Positions 2,439 to 9,824 of a DNA stretch of 64,000 nt are shown here, piece after piece (the stretch's first letter is position 1; each line of letters begins with the position of its first letter). The notes beneath the pieces were generated by a model, which had not been told where the DNA came from, did not search any database, and worked only from the letters and a program-made list of their open reading frames with translations. A program made the position numbers and the translations under genes. Source of the DNA: an uncultured Candidatus Actinomarinales bacterium (GTDB taxonomy: Bacteria; Actinomycetota; Acidimicrobiia; Actinomarinales; Actinomarinaceae); the NCBI GenBank assembly GCA_943840565.1, contig CALSUY010000001.1, forward strand, positions 496,001-560,000, given 5' to 3'.

Positions 2439-3406
2439 ATTTTAGAAATCGTTTCTGTAAATTTTGATATAAATCCACTTTCCACAGTTTTATTGGAAAA
2501 TACAATAGAATTCTTTACAGCTTCAGCAGATGACGAACCATGAGCAATTGTAACAATTCCATTAACACCCAATAAATATGCACCGTTAGTTTTGTCAGGA
2601 TCAAGCCTATCCTTGACTGGTTTAAGAGCTTTGTTTACAGGTAATAAAAGTGGTTTAAATAAGTTTTCAAGAAATGATTCTTTAATCATCTTTTGCTGTA
2701 ATCTTGCTGTCCCTTCCATTGTTTTTAAAACCATATTTCCTGTGAATCCATCAGTAACAAATACGTCAGCTGTATCTAGTCCAAAATCTCTACCTTCAAT
2801 GTTTCCAATAAAATTTAAATTTGAATTTTTTAGAAGTTTATAAGTATTTTTTTCTAAATCACGTCCTTTTGTAGACTCTTCCCCATTATTAAGTAAACCA
2901 ATTCTTGGTGATGGAATGTTGAAAATAACTTCTGCAAATTTTGATCCCATAGCTGCAAATTGAAGTAGGACTTTAGGTTTAACCTCTAAACTAGCGCCAG
3001 AGTCAAGTAAAACTATTTCACCTTTTATTGATGGGAGAACAGAAGCAATAGCTGGTCTAATTATACCTCTCATTTTTCCAAGTACAGATATAGCAGCAAC
3101 TAAACTGGCACCAGTCGAACCAGCGGAAAATACTGCAGAAGCTTTATTTTCTTTAACTAGTTGCATAGCGCCCACAATAGAAGAATTTTTTTTAGTCCTT
3201 ATAGCTCTTGCTGGATCTTCATCCATAGAAATCACTTCAGGAAAATGTACTACTGGAATTTGATTACCTTCCAGGAAAGGTTCGATAAGGTTTTTATCCC
3301 CGCATAGAATAATATCTATTCCTAGGTTCTTAGCTTTTATTGCACCCTTAACTATTTCTTCGGGAGCAGAATCACCGCCCATTGCATCGACAGCAATAGT
3401 ATTCAT
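2435..3406 (-). CDS. plsX: Phosphate acyltransferase PlsX
   Basis: PlsX makes acyl-phosphate from acyl-ACP for phospholipid synthesis at the cytoplasmic membrane face. The 323-residue chain opens with AVDAMGGDSAPEEIVKGA, the family's N-terminal signature. It also contains SAGSTGASLVAA and VTDGFTGNMVLKTMEG, both typical of PlsX. It lies directly downstream of rpmF (10-base gap) and overlaps rnc by 4 bases, the common bacterial rpmF-plsX order. Identification is firm. Confidence 0.96.
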   Translation of the reverse strand: MNTIAVDAMGGDSAPEEIVKGAIKAKNLGIDIILCGDKNLIEPFLEGNQIPVVHFPEVISMDEDPARAIRTKKNSSIVGAMQLVKENKASAVFSAGSTGASLVAAISVLGKMRGIIRPAIASVLPSIKGEIVLLDSGASLEVKPKVLLQFAAMGSKFAEVIFNIPSPRIGLLNNGEESTKGRDLEKNTYKLLKNSNLNFIGNIEGRDFGLDTADVFVTDGFTGNMVLKTMEGTARLQQKMIKESFLENLFKPLLLPVNKALKPVKDRLDPDKTNGAYLLGVNGIVTIAHGSSSAEAVKNSIVFSNKTVESGFISKFTETISKI

Positions 3407-3416
3407 AAACTATATA

Positions 3417-3599
3417 TTAACTAGTTTCAGGTTCTTTTACTTGACGTCCATTGTATGTTCCATCTACTGGATTAACTCTGTGTGATTGCTTAGCAACACC
3501 AGTTTCAGGATCTATCATAAAATGAGGTTTACTGACTTTATGAGTAGCTTTCCTTCTTCTGGTTCTAGATTTAGACATCTTTTTCTTAGGTACGGCCAT
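3417..3599 (-). CDS. rpmF: 50S ribosomal protein L32
   Basis: This 60-residue basic protein opens with MAVPKKKMSKSRTRRRKATH, the L32 signature. The two CxxC zinc-binding pairs of many L32 proteins are absent (no cysteine at all), so this is a zinc-independent C-minus version, as in many actinobacteria. It lies between the DUF177 gene (16-base gap) and plsX, the standard arrangement. A ribosome-binding site (GAAAGGAAA) precedes the ATG. Confidence 0.95.
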   Translation of the reverse strand: MAVPKKKMSKSRTRRRKATHKVSKPHFMIDPETGVAKQSHRVNPVDGTYNGRQVKEPETS

Positions 3600-3615
3600 T
3601 TAATTTCCTTTCAAC

Positions 3616-4116
3616 TTACAAATCTAGCTCACTTAGAGAAGAAAATGGACTTTCTTTTAAGTTTTTTTCTTCGTGTTTACATTGGTGTGAATTTTGCTCT
3701 TTGCCACATATAATGCATAGTCCTAAACACTCATCACTACAAAGAGTAACTAATGAGATATTGTCGATAACTTTTTCAGAGATTATCGGATAAATATCTA
3801 TATTTTCATCATTAAAGTCAATATCGTATTCATTTTCATTATGAATATATAATTTTTCATTTATTGAAATTTCTTGTTGTTTTGAAGAAACTTTTAAACA
3901 TCTAGAGCACTCACTGTCAGCCAAATAAGATATTAATAAATCCAGAAGTAAATATTCGCCATCAAGAGTAACAATACCCGTCATTAATGCATCTGAACCT
4001 TGAGAGGCAGTTGTGCCAGAGTATCTGATATTTAATAGACCGGCTTCATTAATAGATAAATCTGTATTTGTATTAAGTACTTTATCTATATTAAATACAG
4101 TATTTAATTTAGACAT
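3616..4116 (-). CDS. DUF177 / YceD family protein
   Basis: The 166-residue protein carries the DUF177 layout: an N-terminal beta-rich half, a CSRC pair at 70-73, and a Cys-rich tail with C126, C130, C134, C137 and C146 that could hold zinc. DUF177 proteins are encoded just upstream of rpmF in most bacteria and have been linked to 23S rRNA accumulation. The exact biochemical role is not established. It is in one operon with the SepIVA-like gene (2-base gap) and rpmF. Confidence 0.85.
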   Translation of the reverse strand: MSKLNTVFNIDKVLNTNTDLSINEAGLLNIRYSGTTASQGSDALMTGIVTLDGEYLLLDLLISYLADSECSRCLKVSSKQQEISINEKLYIHNENEYDIDFNDENIDIYPIISEKVIDNISLVTLCSDECLGLCIICGKEQNSHQCKHEEKNLKESPFSSLSELDL

Positions 4117-4118
4117 AA

Positions 4119-4628
4119 CTATTCTGGTTCAATAATTTCTCGAGGTTTTCTTAGAGAATTTTTTTCATTAGTAATATATAAATTTAATTGTTCAATTTTT
4201 GTTTGTAATTCTGTAAATAAAGTGTCCATCTCATCTTCAATTTTTATTCTGTAAGCTTGAGATTCTTTTTCAGCTTGTTTAATAAGTGTATTAGCCTCAA
4301 CAACTGCTTCTTGTAGTACATAGGAATTAGAAATTAAGTTTTCAGATTCTCTTTTTGCATTATTAATTATATTTTGTGATTCTTCTTTAGCTTCATTTAG
4401 AAAAGTCTCTTGCTCTCTTACGAGCCAACGTGCAGTTCTCATCTCGACAGGAAGTATATCAATAAGATTTTCAACAATACCAATTAGCTCTTTCTTACTA
4501 GACCTGCTTTTTAGAAAACTTCCAGAATTTAATTTCTCTCTTAAATTTTCTAGTTGATCAACGTACTGAATTTTTTGTTCACCGCTAATTACATCCTTAA
4601 AGTTTATCTCTTCACTATCAGACATCAT
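4119..4628 (-). CDS. Coiled-coil protein, SepIVA/DivIVA-like
   Basis: This 169-residue acidic, soluble protein has a predicted long helix from about 80 to 160 rich in E, K, Q and A heptads (EAKEESQNIINNAKRESEN), the pattern of DivIVA and ATP-synthase-b-like coiled coils. Between coaD and DUF177, mycobacteria carry SepIVA, a division and cell-envelope protein. The same position here suggests an orthologue, but similarity outside the coiled coil cannot be judged by eye. The start overlaps coaD by 11 bases. An alternative is a generic coiled-coil protein. Confidence 0.6.
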   Translation of the reverse strand: MMSDSEEINFKDVISGEQKIQYVDQLENLREKLNSGSFLKSRSSKKELIGIVENLIDILPVEMRTARWLVREQETFLNEAKEESQNIINNAKRESENLISNSYVLQEAVVEANTLIKQAEKESQAYRIKIEDEMDTLFTELQTKIEQLNLYITNEKNSLRKPREIIEPE

Positions 4629-7986: not shown

Positions 7987-8202
7987 ATGGCTCAAGGTGT
8001 AGTTAAATCATACGACCCCAACTCGGGCAATGGTATTGTTGTTTTAGACACAGATAAATCTGAAGTTTATATTCAACCAGGATCTCTTAAAGGCTCTATT
8101 TTTAGAACACTTAGACAAGGTCAGAGAATAAATTTTCAAATTTCTGATATTGATGGGATGAAAACTATATCAAATGTCAAAATTGGACAAGGTGGATATT
8201 AA
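7987..8202 (+). CDS. Small cold-shock-like (OB-fold) protein
   Basis: The ATG follows the rpmB stop codon directly. The 71-residue protein has the beta-barrel rhythm of cold-shock and S1-like folds: a GVVKSYDPNSGNGIVVL start, a central VYIQPGSLKGS, and GQRINFQISDIDG near the end. The aromatic RNP motifs of classical CspA are not obvious. Nucleic-acid binding is therefore inferred from fold resemblance. Linkage to L28 suggests a role in translation. Confidence 0.55.
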   Translation: MAQGVVKSYDPNSGNGIVVLDTDKSEVYIQPGSLKGSIFRTLRQGQRINFQISDIDGMKTISNVKIGQGGY

Positions 8203-8211
8203 AAATAGTTA

Positions 8212-9405
8212 ATGTCTGAAATTAACCTCAAGGACTCAAACCAAGCAATATGTAAAAAACATTTTGCAGATTTAGTCTGCGATGAGTTTACGATGTCAAT
8301 ATTTAGTGGTGGGCAAACTGCCGCAGATGAAAAATTGGCTAGTCTTGATATTACTGGGTATGCAAAAAAAAGAAATAACGTATATCCGGAAAGAAAAAGA
8401 GGTTCGTCTAATCTATCTCCCTATATAAGGCATGGGTTGTTATCTTTAAATGAAGTGTGGAGTGTTGTTGAAGATTACCCTTATGAAGATAAAGTAAAAT
8501 TTAGAGATGAACTTCTTTGGCAAGAATTTTCACGACATCTTTATGCAATTATGGGAAAAAAAATGTCAAAGAACCTTAACTACACGATGATAAATACCAA
8601 TAAAACTGTGAATACTCAAGAGATGAATTGCATCAATACAATTACTGAAGAACTAACAAAAACAGGTTATATGGTAAATCAAACAAGAATGTGGTTCTCA
8701 TCACACCATGCTTTCAGAGCAGAAAATAATTGGAAGGTATATGAAGACTTTATGTTTAGACATTTGGTAGATGGTTCAAGGTTCGCAAATAGACTTGGCT
8801 GGCATTGGGTGATGGGTAGTCAAACAGGTAAACTTTATGGATTTGCTCAATCACAAGTTAAAAATAGAGCAAAAAAATTATGTGAGGAGTGTTCTCTTCA
8901 ATACAATTGTCCAATAATGATGTGGCCAGATGAAAATAGGTTTGAGGATGTTAACCAAAAGTTTGATTTTGATATCATATCTAAATTTGGTCCACAACAT
9001 ATTGTTGACACAGGTAAGAAACCTGAAATAGTATGGATTACGGGTGAATCATTAGGAGATGACGACCCAGCAATGAAATCGTATCCAGATTTACCTGTGT
9101 TGTTTATATTTGACTCTATTTTGTTAAAACACTTACAGATTTCAACAAAAAGAATAAATTTCCTACTCGATACATTAAAAGAGCTTGCGGTCAAAAAAAA
9201 TCTAGTTGTACACGTCGGAGATCCACAAAAAATACTACAAAATTACAATTATGCATCCACACATGCATGTGTTCCAAAATACAAAGATATAATAAGTAAA
9301 AATATGCCTGTAGTTGAATTTCCTACTCGAAGGTTAGTGGAGCCTATTGATTTCTACCCTAAAAGCTATACATCCTGGAAAAAGAATATTGTATTAACTC
9401 AATGA
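8212..9405 (+). CDS. Photolyase/cryptochrome-related flavoprotein with permuted domains and Fe-S-type cysteines
   Basis: Residues about 20-240 resemble the photolyase FAD-binding domain: LSPYIRHGLLSLNEVW (68-83), RDELLWQEFSRHL (98-110), TGYMVNQTRM (151-160) and a DGSRFANRLGWHWVMG stretch (187-202). C140, C224, C227 and C233 fall where iron-sulfur bacterial photolyases (PhrB/CryB type) bind a [4Fe-4S] cluster. Residues about 270-395 resemble the alpha/beta domain that is normally N-terminal: IVWITGESLGDDDPAM, PVLFIFDSILL, VVHVGDPQKIL and RRLVEPIDFYP. The order is therefore inverted relative to known photolyases. DNA repair or light sensing is inferred; the substrate is unknown. Confidence 0.75.
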   Translation: MSEINLKDSNQAICKKHFADLVCDEFTMSIFSGGQTAADEKLASLDITGYAKKRNNVYPERKRGSSNLSPYIRHGLLSLNEVWSVVEDYPYEDKVKFRDELLWQEFSRHLYAIMGKKMSKNLNYTMINTNKTVNTQEMNCINTITEELTKTGYMVNQTRMWFSSHHAFRAENNWKVYEDFMFRHLVDGSRFANRLGWHWVMGSQTGKLYGFAQSQVKNRAKKLCEECSLQYNCPIMMWPDENRFEDVNQKFDFDIISKFGPQHIVDTGKKPEIVWITGESLGDDDPAMKSYPDLPVLFIFDSILLKHLQISTKRINFLLDTLKELAVKKNLVVHVGDPQKILQNYNYASTHACVPKYKDIISKNMPVVEFPTRRLVEPIDFYPKSYTSWKKNIVLTQ

Positions 9406-9824
9406 GAAGATATATAATTTTCACATTTCTATTTTTTCATAACTATATTTATATTTACTCAAAAGGAAGAATTGGCAAATCATTGAATGGTCGACCATGT
9501 TTAATACTTGAGAGCACTGGTGCTAAAACACAATTAATAAGAAAAAATGTTTTAGTTTACCTAAAGGAAAATGATGAAATATGTATAGTTGCATCTAAAG
9601 GAGGTAGCATAAACAATCCAGGATGGTACCACAATCTAAAAAAGAATCCCTCAGCAACTATTTATATTGGTACGACAAAAATAGAAGTTACAGCTAGAGA
9701 AATTACAGATGATGAGAGATTAGAGTGGTGGAAAAAAATGGATTATCTAAATAATGGTGGTTACGAAAACTATCAGAAACGGACTCAAAGGACAATTCCA
9801 GTCTTGTTACTATCTGAGACTTAG
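9402..9824 (+). CDS. Deazaflavin (F420)-dependent nitroreductase/quinone reductase family protein
   Basis: The 140-residue protein matches the Ddn/DUF385 family, split-barrel enzymes that use reduced coenzyme F420. Recognisable parts are KGRIGKSLNGRPCLILE, a VASKGGSINNPGWYHNL segment (about 67-83), and NPSATIYIG. An N-terminal hydrophobic helix (about 4-20) may attach it to the membrane, as in other Ddn proteins. Its ATG overlaps the upstream photolyase-like stop by 4 bases, so the two are coupled. The natural substrate is not predictable. Confidence 0.85.
   Translation: MRRYIIFTFLFFHNYIYIYSKGRIGKSLNGRPCLILESTGAKTQLIRKNVLVYLKENDEICIVASKGGSINNPGWYHNLKKNPSATIYIGTTKIEVTAREITDDERLEWWKKMDYLNNGGYENYQKRTQRTIPVLLLSET

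Follow-up and report, generated by a model that had tools for sequence, protein, structure and literature searches.

A reverse-order photolyase gene with an iron-sulfur-type cysteine set in a marine actinobacterium and its relatives

Photolyases whose two domains stand in reverse order were published in 2022 as Phr4 and Phr5 of Synechococcus, which are encoded by split genes, and as the single-gene Phr6 of Cyanobium; Nostoc punctiforme was reported with the same gene set as these organisms (PMC9426592). An inverted topology is also cited for the NewPHL/SPL proteins (Emmerich et al. 2020, via PMC13274461), and PMC9649867 and PMC9178010 present SPLs as photolyases of cyclobutane pyrimidine dimers (CPDs) that in part contain iron-sulfur (Fe-S) clusters (Xu et al. 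2021). Here we analyze a 64,000-nt stretch of DNA (the window) from an uncultured Candidatus Actinomarinales bacterium (GCA_943840565.1, contig CALSUY010000001.1, positions 496,001 to 560,000), which carries at 8212..9405, on the forward strand like all features given below, an inverted-order Fe-S-type photolyase gene encoding 397 residues. The sequence-only reading of this gene knew of no description of such a permutation, which the proteins named above already display. The 8212-9405 family is a well-conserved actinobacterial branch of the known reverse-order Fe-S photolyases, not a new kind of protein. New are the breadth of this branch, with its invariant and unusual flavin adenine dinucleotide (FAD)-site residues Q104 and S189, an operon conserved in marine members (rpmB-csp-phr-ddn), Deinococcus forms that are either split or fused, and a weak hint at the origin of the NewPHL Z-domain.

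Profile comparisons confirmed that the 8212-9405 open reading frame encodes a photolyase FAD domain followed by an alpha/beta antenna domain, that is, the order opposite to the antenna-before-FAD arrangement of class I CPD photolyases. The FAD- and lesion-binding helical domain, which includes the cysteine site, occupies 8287..8946 (approximately residues 26-245). It matches NCBIfam TIGR03556 over residues 30-203 (E=2.4e-12) and Pfam PF03441 over residues 99-206 (E=4.8e-6; 26.5 bits, just below the 27-bit cut-off), and single-sequence searches aligned residues 34-203 with the Protein Data Bank (PDB) photolyases 1tez and 1owl at E ~1e-9; with the family profile, the match to 1tez reached E=1.4e-25. 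Together with antenna-type profile matches at residues 265-395, these FAD matches at residues 30-206 bear out the inversion noticed originally. A sequence search of our PDB copy found no solved chain of the inverted type, and a structure would therefore be informative. Homologues with the same order, proposed earlier as a check, were recovered from 29 of 35 same-genus genomes, the window's own among them, from 9 of 113 other sampled genomes of the class and from 15 genomes elsewhere in the phylum. They provided 53 distinct full-length proteins for alignment, namely 52 uninterrupted sequences from many genera across Actinomycetota besides the 8212-9405 product, all with identical domain order. 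Fe-S reverse-order photolyases, described from cyanobacteria, thereby gain a widespread branch among actinobacteria. It includes streamlined surface-ocean relatives of Actinomarinales, whose gene is part of a conserved operon.

The C-terminal Rossmann-like antenna domain (residues 266-395; 9007..9396) demanded separate scrutiny, since single-sequence HMM searches yielded no match at residues 265-395, including no direct match to Pfam PF00875. We built a profile from this domain only (A2; 19 sequences, two Deinococcus C-domains among them) and ran it against all PDB chains. The 22 top-ranked distinct sequences were all photolyases or cryptochromes (best E=0.0044) and aligned in the expected register through the antenna domain at their N-terminus. 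Furthermore, hhalign comparison of the actinobacterial C-domains alone with 16 class I antenna domains drawn from the same class of bacteria scored 52 (P=3.4e-8), whereas 20 column-shuffled controls scored at most 17. The homologous Deinococcus C-domains matched PF00875 DNA_photolyase directly (E=2.3e-4 and 7.2e-4, below the curated cut-off) and aligned with the actinobacterial profile at a score of 116. The domain is therefore class I-like (PF00875-related), not of the DPRP type, and the identities first assigned to both halves of the protein hold. In a full-length AlphaFold model, residues 261-370 show alternating strands and helices, at block-mean confidences of 66-90 (fair to high). Residues 1-20 were also confidently modeled, and the isolated C-domain was less well predicted (predicted local distance difference test score, pLDDT, 52), which suggests that the N-terminal segment may pack on the antenna domain. 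Foldseek retrieved generic Rossmann folds with the full-length model, with PhrB (4dja) at rank 14. With the isolated, low-confidence C-domain model the top eight matches were entries of one class II photolyase, at non-significant E-values; they only support, as model-based matches, the antenna identity.

The four Fe-S-type cysteines are C140 (8629..8631), the C224-x-x-C227 pair (8881..8892) and C233 (8908..8910), the last followed by an invariant proline (Pro234). Each of them is invariant in 53/53 sequences, at a spacing of 84/3/6 residues in 52 and of 83/3/6 in the remaining one. This conservation supports strong constraint on the set, and the four residues probably hold a [4Fe-4S] cluster. 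The sequence-only reading had likened them to the PhrB/CryB layout; it placed the cysteines correctly, but PhrB uses Cys350, 438, 441 and 454, that is, a spacing of 88/3/13 (PMC3204975). Synechococcus RS9916 Phr4, with C169, C254, C257 and C263 (85/3/6; PMC9426592), comes much closer. PhrB, a member of the FeS-BCPs, does lay out its first three Fe-S-type cysteines similarly, and its Cys350 precedes His366 by the same 16 residues that separate C140 from N156. It has, however, the normal domain order, a DPRP antenna (PF04244) at the N-terminus, which is absent here, a fourth cysteine at +13 and not +6, and His366/Leu370 in place of Asn/Met. The differences in fourth-cysteine spacing, antenna type and lesion residues weaken the PhrB/CryB comparison. 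On the other hand, Phr4/5/6, compared by their published description, share with the 8212-9405 protein the FAD domain in first place, the alpha/beta domain in second and four Fe-S-type cysteines at a spacing of about 85/3/6; they differ in their cyanobacterial hosts and in having been predicted as (6-4) photolyases, as opposed to the CPD-type lesion residues of the actinobacterial proteins.

These residues lie in two motifs of the FAD domain. Within RDELLWQEF (residues 98-106; 8503..8529), located by alignment to 1owl, by family counts and by the list of FAD contacts in PMC9426592, E100 and W103 match the Glu and Trp with which class I CPD photolyases contact the lesion. Within NQTRM (residues 156-160; 8677..8691), N156 and M160 occupy the positions of PhrB His366 and Leu370 and are of the CPD type. 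E100, W103 and N156 are invariant in 53/53 sequences and M160 is Met in 49/53, so that the complete Glu/Trp/Asn/Met set of class I CPD photolyases is present, whereas the catalytic His366 of PhrB is replaced by Asn throughout. As the lesion contacts are thus CPD-type and not those of a PhrB-like (6-4) enzyme, the sequence points to light-driven repair of CPDs as the likeliest function. We consider it probable that the 8212-9405 protein is, as a whole, an inverted-topology Fe-S SPL/Phr6-type photolyase, with CPDs as its most likely substrate. In such an enzyme, the N-terminal helical domain would bind FAD and the ultraviolet (UV) lesion, the cluster on its cysteines would stabilize the fold, and the C-terminal Rossmann-like domain would correspond to the antenna or lid domain of ordinary photolyases placed at the opposite end of the chain. 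Upon illumination, reduced FAD would pass an electron to the lesion and reverse the dimer. This activity would complement that of the canonical PhrB-like and class II photolyases of close relatives. PMC9649867 (citing Xu et al.) describes SPL itself as an Fe-S cluster-containing CPD photolyase.

Several observations weigh against this assignment. Q104 and S189, both fixed in 53/53 sequences, replace FAD-contacting residues of ordinary photolyases. The former stands for an Arg and the latter, in the FAD-contact motif DGSRFAN (residues 187-193; 8770..8790), for the Asp of DGD; their equivalents R287 and D382 are listed as FAD contacts in the Synechococcus photolyase (PMC9426592), and the chemistry could therefore differ. 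In addition, M126, a variable position, aligns with A. nidulans W314, the third Trp of the classical chain for electron transfer. The full-length AlphaFold model is poor in the FAD half, owing to an alignment input of only five sequences. Finally, Synechococcus phr4/phr5 raised survival of Escherichia coli after UV-C without a significant difference between light and dark (PMC9426592).

An Fe-S (6-4) photolyase, as proposed from the cysteines for Synechococcus Phr4/5 and Cyanobium Phr6, would account for the FeS-BCP-like cysteine set and for the Ser at the S189 position, which is likewise found in the genus's PhrB-like proteins; loss of phr4/phr5 lowers UV-C survival (PMC9426592), which likewise speaks for it. 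Nevertheless, N156 and M160 take the place of His366 and Leu370 of PhrB, of which both the H366N and the H366N/L370M variants are inactive, and H366N abolishes (6-4) repair (PMC4619345). Moreover, most genomes in the genus have a PhrB-like photolyase of the DPRP type already. We thus rate a (6-4) activity as unlikely, and the CPD-type residues make this label doubtful for such proteins in general, which can be tested.

A cryptochrome-like light sensor or a redox flavoprotein devoid of repair activity, to which the product of the overlapping reductase gene would supply F420H2 in the genus, fits the fixed changes at Q104 and S189, the fact that phr4/phr5 depended only weakly on light in E. coli, the FO synthase encoded in the genome and the sharing of an operon with genes for a cold-shock-like protein and an F420H2 reductase. 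These operon partners are, however, not retained outside the genus, and the invariance of the CPD lesion residues E100, W103 and N156, with M160 nearly invariant, speaks against it; we consider this option quite improbable. That 8212-9405 is a chimera or an assembly error, to which the incompleteness of its genome (~71% complete) could lend some credit, can be practically dismissed, given the 52 further same-order homologues, a 98% identical copy in a second genome, and a stop-to-stop scan that found no upstream Pfam antenna domain in the nine homologues with long upstream frames; an ordinary N-terminal domain in homologues is what the sequence-only reading had named as refuting.

The preferred assignment as a reverse-order Fe-S photolyase agrees with the placement of the family. 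In a tree of FAD domains, the actinobacterial proteins form one clade (100/98). NewPHL and Deinococcus proteins join this clade, separated from class I (100/97); a long PhrB-like branch falls on the same side. Three Deinococcus plasmid proteins (WP_151845379, WP_114673394 and WP_124875266, annotated as FAD-binding domain-containing proteins) are likewise single-gene, of inverted order, with the four cysteines and CPD-type residues, but are ~25% identical to the actinobacterial family and keep Arg and Asp at the Q104 and S189 positions, as does NewPHL. In Deinococcus sp. QL22, the FAD and antenna halves are two genes (WP_249396019 and WP_249396018; 3001-3774 and 3771-4292 of locus L063, span 3001-4292, on plasmid unnamed3) that overlap by 4 nt. 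This two-gene arrangement is an independent parallel to Synechococcus phr4/phr5.

The SPLs, as described by others, have a CPD-type active site, Fe-S cysteines and no N-terminal alpha/beta domain, as here, while the actinobacterial family demonstrably bears its alpha/beta domain at the C-terminus. It thus shares with NewPHL/SPL the inverted topology and the CPD-type FAD domain, but where those proteins have a Z-domain, it has a recognizable antenna fold. Light-dependent repair of CPDs also characterizes the NewPHL/SPL class, with NewPHL preferring single strands. The proteobacterial NewPHL-type proteins compared (Ruegeria, Peteryoungia, Novosphingobium, Asticcacaulis and Niveispirillum; loci L065 and L091-L095) also place the FAD domain first and share the family's side of the tree, but lack the four-cysteine set. 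Their Z-domain aligned with class I antenna domains at a score of 26 in a consistent register (shuffles <=15.5, n=20), a weak hint, at the sequence level, that the two may share an origin; directly against the actinobacterial C-domain it scored 19, not above shuffles (maximum 21.6). It is conceivable, although we lean slightly against it, that the inversion arose once, possibly via a two-gene stage as exemplified by the overlapping FAD and antenna genes of Deinococcus sp. QL22 and by marine Synechococcus, and that the Z-domain is a worn remnant of the displaced antenna domain. If so, SPLs would not be primitive antenna-less photolyases, and the case for rooting the photolyase/cryptochrome family on them would lose one argument. 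The recognizable C-terminal antenna domain bears in any case on the notion of SPLs as antenna-less ancestors of the whole family.

The photolyase gene belongs to a probable operon that starts with rpmB (ribosomal protein L28; 7798..7986; PF00830, E=2.5e-16). A cold-shock-domain-like gene encoding 71 residues follows (7987..8202; PF00313, E=4.6e-6) and ends 9 nt upstream of the photolyase gene, whose stop is overlapped by 4 nt by the start of a gene for an F420H2-dependent quinone reductase of the DDN type (9402..9824; PF04075, E=4e-37). This order is largely conserved in the genus: the cold-shock-like gene lies ~10 nt upstream of the photolyase gene in nearly all same-genus loci, and the reductase gene lies 3' of it in every one, mostly with the 4-nt overlap and in a few 18 nt downstream. 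To find a cold-shock-like gene in the operon of a repair enzyme is unusual. The overlap with an F420-dependent reductase gene, reported before, is therefore genuine and kept within the genus. Outside it, the reductase gene was absent from beside the photolyase gene at every locus, and a Pfam scan of five other-genus loci found no common neighbor. Coupling to F420 through the reductase was accordingly rejected as a trait of the family. A possible part of the proposed F420 link is a deazaflavin antenna: the own genome and the genus encode FO synthase (cofH), and F420 production is known in Actinomarinales (PMC7771536), so that 8-HDF/FO is a plausible antenna chromophore. In the own genome, the cofH match (contig positions 482806-483850, outside the window) is split over two frames, probably by a one-base assembly error, since relatives keep the gene intact in one frame.

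In its own, incomplete genome, the 8212-9405 product is the sole photolyase seen. Besides the PhrB-like DPRP photolyases, some genomes of the genus encode a protein that we read as a photolyase of class II. The PhrB-like enzymes themselves (loci L084, L085 and L088) apparently do not have all four cysteines of the FeS-BCPs and resemble, in this respect, the group with Prochlorococcus PromaPL. A family-profile scan found no relative in viral contigs, and phage records gave FAD-domain matches only. In one actinobacterium, the reverse-order photolyase gene is closely preceded by a gene for an amine-oxidase-like/NAD(P)-binding flavoprotein (locus L035, 3621-4975), with a DUF2256/DUF3253 gene in between, and such a flavoprotein gene is also found just upstream of the Asticcacaulis NewPHL (locus L094, 549-1493).
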